Source: Thermococcus peptonophilus (GTDB lineage: Archaea; Methanobacteriota_B; Thermococci; Thermococcales; Thermococcaceae). Taken from it: a stretch of DNA of 64,000 nt. Positions 7,910 through 15,480 of this stretch are shown piece after piece. The stretch's first letter is position 1. Each line of letters starts with the position of its first letter. The translations under genes and the position numbers were made by a program. The notes under the pieces are model-generated. The model was given only the letters and a program-made list of their open reading frames with translations, was not told the DNA's origin and made no database searches. The stretch spans positions 248,001 to 312,000 of the forward strand of contig NZ_CP014750.1 in assembly GCF_001592435.1 (NCBI RefSeq). Direction: 5' to 3'.

Positions 7910-7986
7910 GGGCCCGTGGTCTAGACGGTTATGACGCCACCCTTACAAGGTGGAGGTCCGGGGTTCGAATCCCCGCGGGCCCACCA
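7910..7986 (+). tRNA. tRNA-Val(UAC), CCA encoded
   Basis: Complete cloverleaf. Acceptor GGGCCCG pairs with CGGGCCC; D stem GTC/GAC; anticodon stem CCACC/GGTGG with loop CTTACAA, giving anticodon TAC; T arm CGGGG-TTCGAAT-CCCCG; discriminator A and a genomic CCA. Its 3' half from 7942 is the left attachment site of the integrated element, and the intact 5' half shows this is the original gene. Confidence 0.97.
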
Positions 7987-8301
7987 CAACCGCTCAAAAT
8001 CTTGCATGGAACCCTTTCTAAAGACTAACCCCTCTAAACTCTGTACTCCTTCTCCCAATTCCCCTATACGACCCTTTAAACCGTTTGAATCATTAGTTGG
8101 TTGTACAACTTTTCTGTTTGGTTGTACAACCCCAGGGTTCTCATCTCCATCCACGTATAAAACGAGGGCCCGCCTCCCATCAACTTCCCTTAACTCAATC
8201 TCAACTTCTTTTCCAATTAACCATCCAAATTCTCTCGGCAACCGTAATAAGGGATATATAAACCCATCCTTACTTTTACTCTGACTAATCCGCCGTTTCA
8301 T
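7921..8301 (-). pseudogene. Int(N): N-terminal part of split integrase
   Basis: N-terminal fragment of the element's integrase, interrupted by integration. The first 50 residues have a pattern like an AbrB/MazE strand-swapped DNA-binding domain (KDGFIYPLLRLPREFG then KEVEIEL); this is inference. The coding frame enters the tRNA as WWARGDSNPGPPPCK and then reads into host tRNA sequence to a stop at 7921. The ATG at 8301 is favoured, with GGGGGTG nine bases upstream; a GTG at 8313 is possible. Residues 1-120 belong to the reconstituted protein. Confidence 0.8.
7942..7988. repeat. attL, 47-bp direct repeat (tRNA 3' half)
   Basis: Identical to 10629-10675. It starts in the anticodon loop at CTTACAA and runs through the encoded CCA plus two bases. 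Identity stops at 7941 and 7989 against the right copy. Confidence 0.95.
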
Positions 8302-8313
8302 ATCCGTCCACAC

Positions 8314-8720
8314 CCCCGCTTAATGTCTCCCATGATTTTCTTCTAATCCCCCAAATTTTCTTCATCTTTGGGCGTCCTCATTCCCATCTCCTTTACGTAT
8401 CTACGTATTCCCCATACAAAAAAGTGTCGTATATTAATTGGCCCGACTATGATTTACCGTAACAACCTAATCTTCACACGTCCCGTCCATAGCATCCCCT
8501 ATAATGTCACTCTAGGTTTCCTGAGTATCCCCGGCCCATCCACTAACAAATCTGCAATAAGCCCCCCGTGATTCTGAACTTAAACACCGATCTGGCCATC
8601 TGTATAAACTTTTCAGAACCAGCGTCTTACCTCACATAATACCCCCAAATCCTTTTCATTTAACCCTATTATTATAAAATTGCTTCATTCCATCCTTTCT
8701 CCTCCCACCTCACAAAATAA
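8314..8720. other. Non-coding part of the element upstream of int
   Basis: About 400 bp without a convincing gene on either strand. On the minus strand AATTAATATAC around 8428-8440 could be the int TATA box, and ATTTTATAATAA near 8670-8685 is another A/T-rich promoter candidate. Very short frames (12-18 codons) are present but unsupported. Confidence 0.5.
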
Positions 8721-8819
8721 TGCTCGCACTACCCTATGATTTTTAGGCATTCAGTGCTCGCACATACCCTGATTTTTAACCGAAATTGCTCGCACTTGGA
8801 ACCCACTATCTACTCGTAC
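8721..8819. repeat. Iteron-like tandem repeats, about 33 bp
   Basis: TGCTCGCAC occurs at 8721, 8755 and 8787, and a degenerate copy TACTCGTAC at 8811. The first two copies are followed by similar blocks (ACCCT then GATTTTTA), so the units are 34 and 32 bp long. Short direct repeats at regular spacing in a small element's non-coding DNA resemble iterons of a replication origin or a regulator's binding array. Function is not shown. Confidence 0.75.
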
Positions 8820-8874
8820 CCTCTGAAATAACCCTCTCATTTCACAGCCCATGTCTCTCATTATAACCGGGCCT

Positions 8875-9036
8875 TCACTCAACCAAACCCGAAACGAACT
8901 CATAAATTGACTTGAACAACACGTAAATAATCAAGAACACCGCCAACATGAAAAGGAACGCCATGAATCCCTCCCGACTGAAAATAAAATACGCGCCAAT
9001 AACTACAAACAAAAGCCCGGCCTTATCAAGCCTCAT
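8875..9036 (-). CDS. Small membrane protein of the integrated element
   Basis: 53-aa protein, MRLDKAGLLFVVIGAYFIF at the start, with two hydrophobic stretches (about residues 7-19 and 25-41) separated by SREG and a short polar end. GGGGTGAG sits about seven bases before the ATG. It is the only gene other than int recognised in the element and follows int in the same direction on the circle. No family is recognised. A role in replication control or the envelope is conceivable, but nothing in the sequence decides this. Confidence 0.6.
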   Translation of the reverse strand: MRLDKAGLLFVVIGAYFIFSREGFMAFLFMLAVFLIIYVLFKSIYEFVSGLVE

Positions 9037-10129
9037 ACCCGACTCACCCCATCAAACTCCTTTCCCCTATCCACCCTGTGTTATTTTCCGCTATCCCACT
9101 TAACTTTAAGCCCCAATCATGCCAGCCCACCCCTTCTCTTCATCCCCCAACTTGAATCCTCGCGATTCTGTATCCACCACCTTACCCTCTGTTAGTGAAC
9201 CCATTAGCATTATCAAATTTCTGGCCTCCCACCCGGAAATAATGTGCTCTCCAACTTGTTCACAACCCTCGCATACTCCCGCTTCGCCTGATTAAGCAAA
9301 TTCAAATAATGCAACCCCATAATGTCACCCTGCAAACTATGCCCAACCATATACTTGATGACAACCTCGGGCACACCAAACTCCATCATCTTGTTAATGA
9401 ACCACTTCCGCAAATACTTCATCGGAGCACCACGCTTACCCGCATACGACCGCACCCTATCATAACTCGTATCCAACCTCCGCAACCCCCGAGCCAACCA
9501 AACCGGCATGAAAACCACATTCGACCTCTTAAACCCACGAACCCAATTCAGCTCATAGTAAGCGATTTCCTTCCCATTCACCCCCTCAATCTTCAACATT
9601 CTCCTATCAAACTCCCGCAAAACCTTAACCGCCTCCGCAATCCTCACCCCACCAAAAGCAGTCAATAAGAAGGCAAGGCAAACATCCTCCCTACCCTTCA
9701 CCTTCGAAAACCAGAACCGAACCTCCTTGTCAGTCGGCACGTACAAATCCACGCCACTCTTCTTCACCTTCAACACCCTCCGCAACTTAACCAACAACTC
9801 CGCATTAATCCGCTCCCTCATCTCAAGAAAGCTCAGTAAATTACGGAAACCATTGACAAACCGATTATTATGGTTCGTGGCCTCAAGAATCTCGACAACC
9901 TCAACAGGACTCCGAATAATCCGCTTACCCACAAACCTATCCAAAGCACTAATGTAGTCCCTCGCAACCGCCCTACTCACCCGACGCTCCAGCCACCGCT
10001 TAAACTCCTCCCTTACACTCCAATAATCCACCACCATATCTACTGAATTTATAAAATAAAACCCTCCTCCACCATCCACACCATTAACCACCTTATCAAC
10101 CATATTAACCGTATAATCCGTATTCACCT

Positions 10130-10500
10130 TATTGACATTAATAAGTGAATTGTTTACAGATGATACAAGGGATACGGATTTACGGATTACAGATGATACG
10201 GGGGCGGATTCTATGCGGTGCGGCCCTCCACCATCACCTACCCCCTTAACACCCTCCCCCACCATATCCACTTCATTCACCTTAATGTTATTAAGGTGGT
10301 TACGGTTAATGGATGATACGGATTTACGATTTACATGTTTAAATGGGGCAGAGGTTATGCGGTTCGCACCCGTACCACCATTATCCGAATCCGAACCACT
10401 CATACCCGGATCACCCACACCCTTTAATTCTATAAATTCCATAGAAATAGGGAGGTGGTTTACGGATCCGGATATGCGGATATGTGGTTCACTCGAATCA
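10130..10500. repeat. Imperfect repeats in the integrase linker
   Basis: Three related segments near 10147-10230, 10303-10365 and 10455-10485 on the + strand contain GGATTTACGGATT-like words and GATGATAC. In the protein they give two clear copies of a roughly 50-residue unit (RITSAPFKHVNRKSVS and RIESAPVSSVIRKSVS) and one weak copy. Confidence 0.7.
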
Positions 10501-10628
10501 CCCGAATGATTGGAACTCGAATCTCCACCCACCGACCTCCAATAACCCAAAACTAATCCATAAACATCCGAATCATTAATTTGCGGATTTTCAAAGTTCA
10601 AATTCGCGAATGGCATGCAATGCCAACT

Positions 10629-10675
10629 CTTACAAGGTGGAGGTCCGGGGTTCGAATCCCCGCGGGCCCACCACA
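10629..10675. repeat. attR, 47-bp direct repeat
   Basis: Right copy of the tRNA 3' half, identical to 7942-7988 (offset 2,687). It lacks the 5' half of the tRNA, so it is not a second tRNA gene. Confidence 0.95.
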
Positions 10676-10703
10676 GAAACTTTGCAGAGCAAAGTTCCAT
10701 CAA

Positions 10704-11575
10704 AGGTGGAATGTCCTTTTGAGTGTCCTGTTTTTTCAGTGATTCTCAATCATCAATTGGCAATTCTCAAGGGTTTACTCACAGTATAACGCCCTTCGGG
10801 CGTTAAAACGAAAGGAAAACCCTTATTCACCTGCAAGTTTGTCATGAGAATCCCAATTCTCAGCCAATTTTAAGAGGACATTCAAGCTTTTGGTGAAGCT
10901 TTTCCCAAAAGCTTCCTCGTGAAGTTTGATCAAGGTTCGTGGTTCTTCTTAGAATTGCCCTTCTACGAGGATTTTCACGATACACAAGCTAGTATTAGTG
11001 AATTCTCTGAGTTTTGAACTGTTGAAAAGGAGTTTCTAACATCTTGACGCCCTACGGGCGTCGATTAAAAAAGCAAACTCACAAAGAGCGAGCAAATAAA
11101 AATGGAATTCACAATCCATGACAGTATTCAAAAGGAAAATCCGCCCAAAATGCCCCCGTCAAACAAGAACTACAAACTTTGATGAAACTTTGCTAGGCAA
11201 AGTTTCCTGTACTCTCAAACCCCCCGAAGTGGGGCTTCGCCCCACAGCCCTCTTTTTCTTACTCCACTGGGGGGCTAACGCCCCCGCGCCCCCAGACATA
11301 TTGCTTGCACAAGCGCTTGTGGGAAGTTTTTGACTAGTATGCCTTGTCTTTACAATTTTGCAATTTCAAAAGGGTTTGCACACAACATAACGCTCAGAAG
11401 GTGTTAAAAATAACCCAAAGTACTTGACTAGTTAAAGAAGAATCCCCCTGTTTCACTGCTAATTCTCACAAAGACATCTGGAGTTTTGAAAAAGCTTCTT
11501 TCGATATCTTCAAAATTTCTCTACAAGAACAAGAAAAAAGAAGACAAGATTTTCCTAAGGTCTTCACCGGAAAAC
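10704..11575. other. Palindrome-rich intergenic region beside attR
   Basis: About 870 bp with no supported gene. It holds several short hairpins: AACTTTGCAGAGCAAAGTT (10679-10697), AACGCCCTTCGGGCGTT (10788-10804), GACGCCCTACGGGCGTC (11045-11061), AAACTTTGCTAGGCAAAGTTT (11185-11205), and a GC-rich block at 11221-11292. A roughly 55-bp imperfect direct repeat occurs at 10762-10821 and 11361-11415 (AGGGTTT, TAACGC, GTTAAAA, ACCC in order). It may be a decayed element or an accessory insertion zone. Confidence 0.6.
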
Positions 11576-14330: not shown

Positions 14331-15480
14331 GGAGGAGCGGGACGATTGCAAGTCCTACGATGAGCGCTGGACCGCAGATTCCGCCGGACTTTTCACTGGA
14401 GGTTGCCGTTTGGGACTTCTCCTGGGAGGTGGTCGTCGGTGAAATCTCGGAGGCACTCTTGCCCTCGACCATTATGGCCCTCCACTCCTTGAGCCACTTG
14501 TCTGTGTTCTCGGCCAGCTCTTCGGCGGGAATCGAGACAACTTTCGCCTTACTAACGTCGAGGGCGTAGCTGAAGCACTCTGGAAGCTCGACCTCGCTGT
14601 TCACCGGATACATCCACTGGTTGAGCGGGAGCTTCTCCTGGGCCTCCTTGCTTATCAGGAAGTTGATGAAGGCCTTTGCAAGTTCCAGGTGCTTCGTTCC
14701 CTTTACGATACCCGCGCCCTCTATCTGCACGTAGGCCGTGTTGTTGAGAAACACAGCTCCAATGCTGGTGTCGTTGTAGTTGCAGGCGTCGTAGGCTGGA
14801 TCGGTTGCGTAGCTGACGAAGAGCGGGGCCTGTCCCTTGTCCCACATCTCCCATCCTGCCGACCAGCCCTTGACGACGATGACGTCGTTTTTCTTTAGGG
14901 CCTCCCAGTAGTAGGGCCACTTATCACCATAGACCGCAATTGTCCAGAGAAGGAAGGCCATTCCGGTGGAGCTAGTCAGCGGGTTCTCAACGATGAGCTT
15001 GCCCTTCCACTCGGGCTTTGTGAGCTCCTCAAAGGTCTTGGGTGGGTTAGGAAGCTCGTTCTTCTTATAGACGATCGCTATCGCACCGTAGTCATAGGGA
15101 GTCAGATAAAATTCAGGATCAAAGTCCTTGATTATCCAGTCAGGAATGTACTTGGCGTTTTCCGGCTTGTAGGGGACGAGGATTCCGGCGTTTATAGCTT
15201 TCTGGAGGTAGCTGTTGTCTATGCCAACTACCACGTCGGCCTGCGGGTTGTCCTTCTCCATTATCAGCCTGCTGAGAACCTCACCAGCGTCTCCGAAAAG
15301 CACGAGGCGGACTTTGACGTTATACTTCTGCTCAAAGATAGGGATTATCTCCTTCATCCACGGCTCGATGCTGTCGTAGGAGTAAACTGTAAGCGTCTCC
15401 TCAGCCGAGACCGGTGAGGAGGCCGCGAAGAGAGACACCAAGACCACTCCAAGCACGAACAATGTCCCCAGTTTCCTCAT
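14314..15480 (-). CDS. ABC solute-binding protein, thiamine-type, with CGP-CTERM tail
   Basis: Extracellular binding protein of 388 aa. A Sec signal peptide (about residues 1-26) leads into ETLTVYSYDSIEPW, the ThiB/TbpA-like type 2 periplasmic binding fold. The C-terminus is a Ser/Thr/Gln linker, then GGICGPALIVG, a hydrophobic span and RRRE. This is the CGP-CTERM sorting signal found in Thermococcales surface proteins, suggesting processing and lipid anchoring at the Cys. No permease or ATPase partner is adjacent. Thiamine or a phosphorylated relative is the likely ligand by family only. Confidence 0.88.
   Translation of the reverse strand: MRKLGTLFVLGVVLVSLFAASSPVSAEETLTVYSYDSIEPWMKEIIPIFEQKYNVKVRLVLFGDAGEVLSRLIMEKDNPQADVVVGIDNSYLQKAINAGILVPYKPENAKYIPDWIIKDFDPEFYLTPYDYGAIAIVYKKNELPNPPKTFEELTKPEWKGKLIVENPLTSSTGMAFLLWTIAVYGDKWPYYWEALKKNDVIVVKGWSAGWEMWDKGQAPLFVSYATDPAYDACNYNDTSIGAVFLNNTAYVQIEGAGIVKGTKHLELAKAFINFLISKEAQEKLPLNQWMYPVNSEVELPECFSYALDVSKAKVVSIPAEELAENTDKWLKEWRAIMVEGKSASEISPTTTSQEKSQTATSSEKSGGICGPALIVGLAIVPLLLRRRE

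Follow-up and report, generated by a model that had tools for sequence, protein, structure and literature searches.

Four same-orientation copies of a short dyad, TRC-TC-GYA, are found at 8721-8819 of the window (the whole 64-kb stretch of DNA that was analysed), and on sequence grounds the best reading is that they form a cis-acting binding array, iteron-like or the relic of one. The copies would be sites for a dimeric DNA-binding protein, and a small integrated element carries them in its one long noncoding stretch, beside the part of it that is richest in A+T. What the array would serve, or would have served, is maintenance of the circular form, as an iteron-like origin or a copy-control site, and it would be read by a protein that is not encoded on the element; this is the reading we tentatively favor. 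We infer both that a protein binds at the sites and that its role is in replication rather than transcription, and sequence cannot choose among an origin-type site, an operator, and a relic.

The integrated element and its array

The element is 2687 bp long and sits in a tRNA-Val (TAC) gene (7910-7986, plus strand, by ARAGORN and Rfam tRNA). This gene is the integration target, and the element extends from its 3' half to where the same 50 bp recur. The first copy is attL (7939-7988, plus strand) and the second, identified by repeat comparison, is attR (10626-10675, plus strand); they are 98% identical, with a start-to-start distance of 2687. The integrase is split, with the N-terminal part, int(N), encoded on the minus strand at 7921-8301 and running into the tRNA, and with the catalytic part, int(C), on the minus strand at 9213-10703, where Pfam finds the SSV-type family PF16795; the portion of the int(C) ORF beyond attR is chromosomal. 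Joining the two at the att core gives 591 aa with no stop. In an alignment of the window integrase with six others, the catalytic R and Y are present in 7/7 and K-x-x-R and G-H in 6/7, pT26-2 being the exception, where R, K-x-x-R, G-H, and Y are what we take to be the names of these motif positions. The split at att in a tRNA gene, the PF16795 match, the catalytic positions, and the continuous frame in the circle together identify an SSV-type suicidal integrase, an arrangement that has been reviewed (PMC8371274). With its att repeats 98% identical and its integrase stop-free and retaining the catalytic positions, the element looks intact.

The only other ORF recognised is a hydrophobic one of 53 aa (8875-9036, minus strand), for which profile and relative searches found no convincing relative, and only weak matches in 61 genomes, the best outside its own genome at E = 0.009. 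All recognised genes of the element, int(N), int(C), and the 53-aa ORF, are on the minus strand, and by the ORF map a single transcription unit in the circular form would take in int followed by the 53-aa ORF. From where that ORF stops to where int starts there is the element's only long noncoding stretch (8320-8874). It holds the array, and the 60 bp richest in A+T within it (8634-8693, 72%) directly precede site 1. An Rfam search at E up to 5 had five matches, all on the tRNA or its attR copy, with 0 in 8320-8874. No replication gene was recognised in the element by Pfam, PHROGs, or NCBIfam, bearing out the original prediction of a minimal element without a visible one.

A few other features of the element and its surroundings were noted. 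For int(N) there is no Pfam family above cut-off, and it is predicted with low confidence to have a b-b-a-b-b domain plus helix, a strand and helix order that would presumably fit the AbrB/SpoVT fold; that assignment is not claimed, the model being poor (mean pLDDT 56.5) and Pfam and PDB searches giving nothing convincing. At the start of the 53-aa ORF, CTTGATA, a word that is the nick site in some rolling-circle plasmids, is visible by eye on the minus strand; it is given no weight, as a 7-mer is expected by chance about once per three 2.7-kb sequences. After attR, 10676-11571 is a long stretch in which no gene is clear. It contains CGCCC-TTC-GGGCG palindromes and a AACTTTGC..GCAAAGTT repeat, which has further matches in several other Thermococcus-like loci.

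Three of the array sites are exact plus-strand copies of TGCTCGCAC, at 8721-8729 (site 1), 8755-8763 (site 2), and 8787-8795 (site 3), and the fourth, TACTCGTAC at 8811-8819 on the same strand, has 2 mismatches to it. The start-to-start steps are 34, 32, and 24, so the three exact copies and one degenerate copy originally listed with these steps were recovered as such by pattern search. Sites 1 and 2 had also been said to have matching downstream blocks, and by eye there is a common gapped block, TACCCTATGATTTTTA in one and ATACCCTGATTTTTA in the other. The 9-mer is identical in 3 copies and the intervening spacers are unlike, which indicates constraint on the word. Its first eight bases, TGCTCGCA, form the dyad TGC-TC-GCA; the fourth copy reads TAC-TC-GTA, its 2 changes being a symmetric pair by which the dyad is kept. 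Only 9 of the 324 nine-mers at two mismatches from TGCTCGCAC keep the dyad (1 in 36 by our own arithmetic), and the fourth copy is among them. On the plus strand of the window the pattern T[AG]CTCG[CT]A has 4 matches, which are the 4 array sites. That the dyad is kept in the fourth copy suggests that these are candidate sites for a dimeric protein.

As a word, TGCTCGCAC is not enriched in the window (11 matches with at most 1 mismatch versus 11.5 expected); it is the sole 9-mer with 3 copies inside 100 bp on the plus strand of the 64 kb. When the 555-bp noncoding gap was shuffled, a 9-mer of any kind occurred 3 times in 100 bp in 0/5000 trials, and when the element was shuffled, in 0/300, with 20 whole-window shuffles giving one such cluster in total. 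The natural background, taken from 17 other loci of the host and relatives, is 1 such cluster in 263,120 bp. These counts argue that the array is not a chance pattern of random sequence. The one background cluster is located in host contig C2 (49 kb), which has no copy of the word and whose gene content is by eye chromosomal, not plasmid-like.

Distribution in relatives and in unrelated genomes

The genomes searched were 61 of the host genus and 94 of the order Thermococcales. Gene content and integrase matches are as in plasmids of Thermococcus and Pyrococcus, and the host is accordingly taken to be Thermococcus-like. The N-domain of int(N) is present in 9/94, host included. Three complete relatives, of 4.06 kb in tRNA-Val TAC (G066), 5.59 kb in tRNA-Val CAC (G062), and 6.3 kb in tRNA-Ser GGA (G010), belong to the same integrase lineage, with related int(N) and int(C) in the same split. 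In another five genomes (G021, G032, G075, G078, and G016), int(N) is kept with no int(C) recognised beside it; the int(N) genes of G016 and G078 contain stops, and that of G075 is disrupted. A relative of int(C) is present in G059. The int(N) at L076 (6043-6423) and that at L077 (7242-7622) are open frames with no int(C) recognised beside them, and L076 has an ORF related to Holliday-junction endonucleases (PF10107) near int(N).

The complete relatives differ from the window's element in holding cargo ORFs and no such array, other genes occupying the slot that in the window holds the 53-aa ORF and the array. The G010 tRNA-Ser element (L078 6686-10684) has genes for a type I-like methyltransferase and specificity subunit, which are possible defence cargo. 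Beside int(C), each of the three elements has an ORF (401 aa at L170 6095-7300, 347 aa at L171 8510-9553, and 384 aa at L078 9530-10684), and the three share a segment that by eye resembles PD-(D/E)xK nucleases, with no Pfam match above cut-off. Pfam and PADLOC recognised no replication initiator in any of the three.

The array is found in 0/3 complete relatives and in 0/5 partial or decayed loci (parts of L051, L076, and L033, and the whole of L172 and L173), and in neither group does any 9-mer occur 3 times within 200 bp. Its absence from these eight related loci indicates that the family does not need it, and rules it out as a family feature. Absence from related elements had been named beforehand as what would count against an iteron-like array, and in this respect the finding, which extends to every other one of the 94 genomes, goes against the original prediction. 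The second point named there, that the array might be a random decayed coding sequence, did not materialize: tblastn with 13 cargo proteins of relatives, which asks in the same way for decayed cargo of theirs, had its best match (E = 0.014) inside int(N), and elsewhere nothing better than E = 0.41. The noncoding gaps of G066 and G062 show no repeat excess versus shuffles. In the G010 tRNA-Ser element the excess in the gap is milder than in the window's: five 9-mers occur in pairs, a number reached by 2/200 shuffles, and a 7-mer is present in three copies, which 9/200 reach.

Two copies of TGCTCGCAC at similar spacing were found in 1/94 genomes, the host only; the reversed-pattern control also matches, once in G013 and once in G031, so a pair of copies is by itself not a demanding criterion. 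Three copies of TRCTCGYAC were found in 1/61 genomes, again only the host, with controls at 0. In plasmid and phage collections there was no match, bar one hit at E = 0.7. Triple arrays of the word do occur in at least 80 stretches of genome contigs, with no archaeon among the titles and the origin judged by record title only as unrelated bacteria, and in 2 viral contigs, L159 with 10 copies (GC 0.57) and L160 with 6 copies (GC 0.68). The viral contigs match the element only over 17 and 19 bp, as expected by chance, and both they and the genome-contig arrays are taken as unrelated to it. Literature searches on TGCTCGCAC, and on TTGTACAA with archaea, gave no archaeal-element context in titles among the matches listed.

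The arrays in unrelated genomes indicate that the word can multiply without a link to the element, and that repeat growth without an origin is possible. This is one of the points in favor of a functionless relic, in which local slippage or duplication would have multiplied the word inside a noncoding slot for cargo, with decay now under way. No relative has the array, the slot is used for unrelated cargo in relatives (in the G010 tRNA-Ser element it holds genes for the methyltransferase and specificity subunit, and in others different ORFs), and the longer gapped block common to sites 1 and 2 is what a decayed tandem duplication would give. Decay of a duplication should not, however, spare the same 9-mer in 3 copies while the rest of the site 3 unit is unlike, nor should it keep the dyad in the fourth copy. 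Despite the longer block of sites 1 and 2, the identical cores, unlike spacers, and symmetric change would fit better with sites of a dimeric protein than with a decaying tandem repeat, and we consider the relic rather unlikely.

Comparison with plasmids and the possible source of an initiator

To what extent do replicating elements have such arrays? The same detector was run on six larger or replicating plasmids and elements (pTN2, pP12-1, pT26-2, pGE2, pGT5, and a 16.9-kb G010 element in tRNA-Arg), picked via hits, via a paper table, or as known plasmids. With 3 copies in 100 bp, arrays are found in 4/6 (pTN2, pP12-1, pT26-2, and the 16.9-kb G010 element, and not pGE2 or pGT5); with 3 copies in 200 bp, pGE2 is added to make 5/6. 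Those of pTN2, pP12-1, pGE2, and the G010 element are at most candidate origins. The large ORF of the 16.9-kb element has only a sub-threshold AAA match. The pT26-2 array (14893-15197) is between t26-20 and t26-21, which is where a published prediction puts the origin of that plasmid (PMC6972569). Such array density is rare in the chromosomal DNA examined and present in 4/6 of the larger or replicating plasmids and elements, and this, together with the pT26-2 array at the predicted origin, is the main support for the iteron-like reading.

The likeness to iteron-type origins, including the predicted one of pT26-2, is in short repeats clustered in a noncoding control region, both found by the same detector, and the clustering of direct repeats is beyond chance. 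The window array differs in having no adjacent replication gene, four sites only, an 8-bp dyad core, and irregular steps, which by our own arithmetic are not whole helical turns, so the regular helical phasing of an iteron-type origin is missing. Nor is a cognate initiator recognised on the replicon, where int and the 53-aa hydrophobic ORF are all that was recognised. The array word is not common to any of the six as an array, although a single copy is found in the 16.9-kb G010 element. Compared with pTN3 and pT26-2, which are of SSV-type, type I, and "suicidal", the element is alike in its PF16795 integrase, in att inside its own gene, in the tRNA target, and in the int(N)/int(C) split, but is different in its size of 2.7 kb, which leaves space for two ORFs but not for the plasmid core genes, and in an int(N) without a Pfam family above cut-off. 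The pT26-2 family has seven core genes (PMC6972569), and the two ORFs recognised in these 2687 bp do not make such a set.

A further candidate for an origin is the int(C) linker (10029-10619, minus strand), a long low-complexity segment where the aligned integrases of relatives are shorter. An origin, if there is any, would then be at about 10036-10500, and the TGCTCGCAC array would have another role. This stretch is AT-rich and dense in direct and long inverted repeats. For the whole element, A+T content over 60 bp peaks here (start 10102, 73% versus 72% beside the array), and within 250 bp there are 22 repeated 9-mers versus a mean of 4.2 in codon shuffles, of which 0/1000 reach 22. The minimum of the detrended GC skew is at 10110, so the skew turns there and not at the array, which is a point against a role of the array in maintenance; with all recognised genes on one strand, GC skew is a weak guide. 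AT richness, repeats, and skew are the origin criteria used for the pT26-2 family (PMC6972569). Against this, the linker is coding, and outside the host it has only five short matches in the 94 genomes, of 25 to 37 bp at E = 0.001 to 0.008; a recent duplication of peptide segments would yield the same codon-level repeats. A linker origin seems to us very unlikely.

If the array does serve in maintenance, the next point of interest is whose protein would read it. The original prediction was of an iteron-like array with perhaps a borrowed initiator of host or helper, and the first part, of iteron-like repeats beyond chance, held up against shuffling. The borrowing did not find support, there being no host-origin word in the element and no helper with the array. 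The word CCAGTGGAAAC, which we take to be an ORB-like word of the host origin, has 10 hits in the window with at most 2 mismatches and 0 in 7939-10625. Nothing outside the element matched when the host genome was searched for the array, so host-origin mimicry is unsupported, and a host initiator likewise. A helper bearing the array did not come up in plasmid and phage records; the sampling of helper plasmids is thin, making this absence weak evidence. A specific version is that the 2.7-kb circle would be a minimal integrative satellite with a self-splitting integrase and four sites for an initiator. A plasmid or virus not yet sampled, itself bearing the same TRCTCGYA array, would supply in trans the replication protein that copies it; this we regard as distinctly unlikely. 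Replication in Thermococcus kodakarensis requires neither Cdc6 nor its origin (PMC5663688), so the element could do without an origin of this kind, and integrated plasmids of the pT26-2 family may be without replication genes or origins (PMC6972569).

Paired palindromes in int(N) and the operator alternative

Inside int(N), just after the N-domain, there is a pair of palindromes that is kept across the integrase family, with copies of GTTGTACAAC at 8100-8109 and 8121-8130 found by repeat search and by alignment of int(N). The pattern TTGTACAA-N{2,18}-TTGTACAA is found in 8/94 genomes, with 0 control matches, and in 7 of the 8 the pair is inside aligned int(N) genes. Loci with paired palindromes are the window, L076, L077, L078, L170, L171, L172, L173, and L189. 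G010 has two places with TTGTACAA pairs, both in the 16.9-kb element, one inside int(N), which is weakly recognised (E = 0.006) and adjoins an att repeat, and one at or just before the int(N) start, where the pair (L189) follows a TATA-like box. Among nine aligned int(N) genes, both TTGTACAA copies are present in 7/9; G016 has one copy, and in the G010 tRNA-Ser element (L078) both palindromes are changed to TCTGTACAGA with the symmetry kept. There are 33 invariant degenerate codon columns in five sequences, and 5 of them are single-codon throughout, 4 of these in the palindromes. In the 16.9-kb element, the second inner palindrome copy is read in another frame (VVQPLYN), so it is the DNA rather than the peptide that seems conserved. 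We read the TTGTACAA pair as a putative site at which the family controls int, perhaps through binding of the int(N) product, and as a better candidate control site for the family than the array.

The palindrome pairs bear on a last way of reading the array, as a set of transcriptional operators with no role in replication. The four dyads would then be for a dimeric regulator, of host or element, that acts on int, on the 53-aa ORF, or on an unannotated plus-strand RNA. The dyad symmetry speaks for this, the sites lie in the interval from the end of the int transcription unit to its start, and a TATA-like TATTATAAAA seen by eye at about 8672-8681 would start a plus-strand RNA just before site 1. 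Relatives, with their TTGTACAA pairs in the int(N) genes of seven genomes, suggest that paired dyads are used as control sites in this integrase family. The array word differs from TTGTACAA, however, and a distance of about 280 to 390 bp separates the sites from the TATA-like stretch that by eye is taken to belong to int, a long way for an operator in archaea. No separate regulator is encoded on the element, and we know of none with the array motif. On balance an operator array is somewhat unlikely.

Several small elements of this integrase lineage combine a suicidal integrase with the lack of any recognised replication gene, which raises the question of how they are maintained and passed on. 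Should the array prove to be an origin that is read in trans, the element would make a satellite of very small size and offer a direct handle on trans replication in hyperthermophiles. If it is not, the TTGTACAA pair in int(N) would be the better place to look for control of integration and excision in the family.
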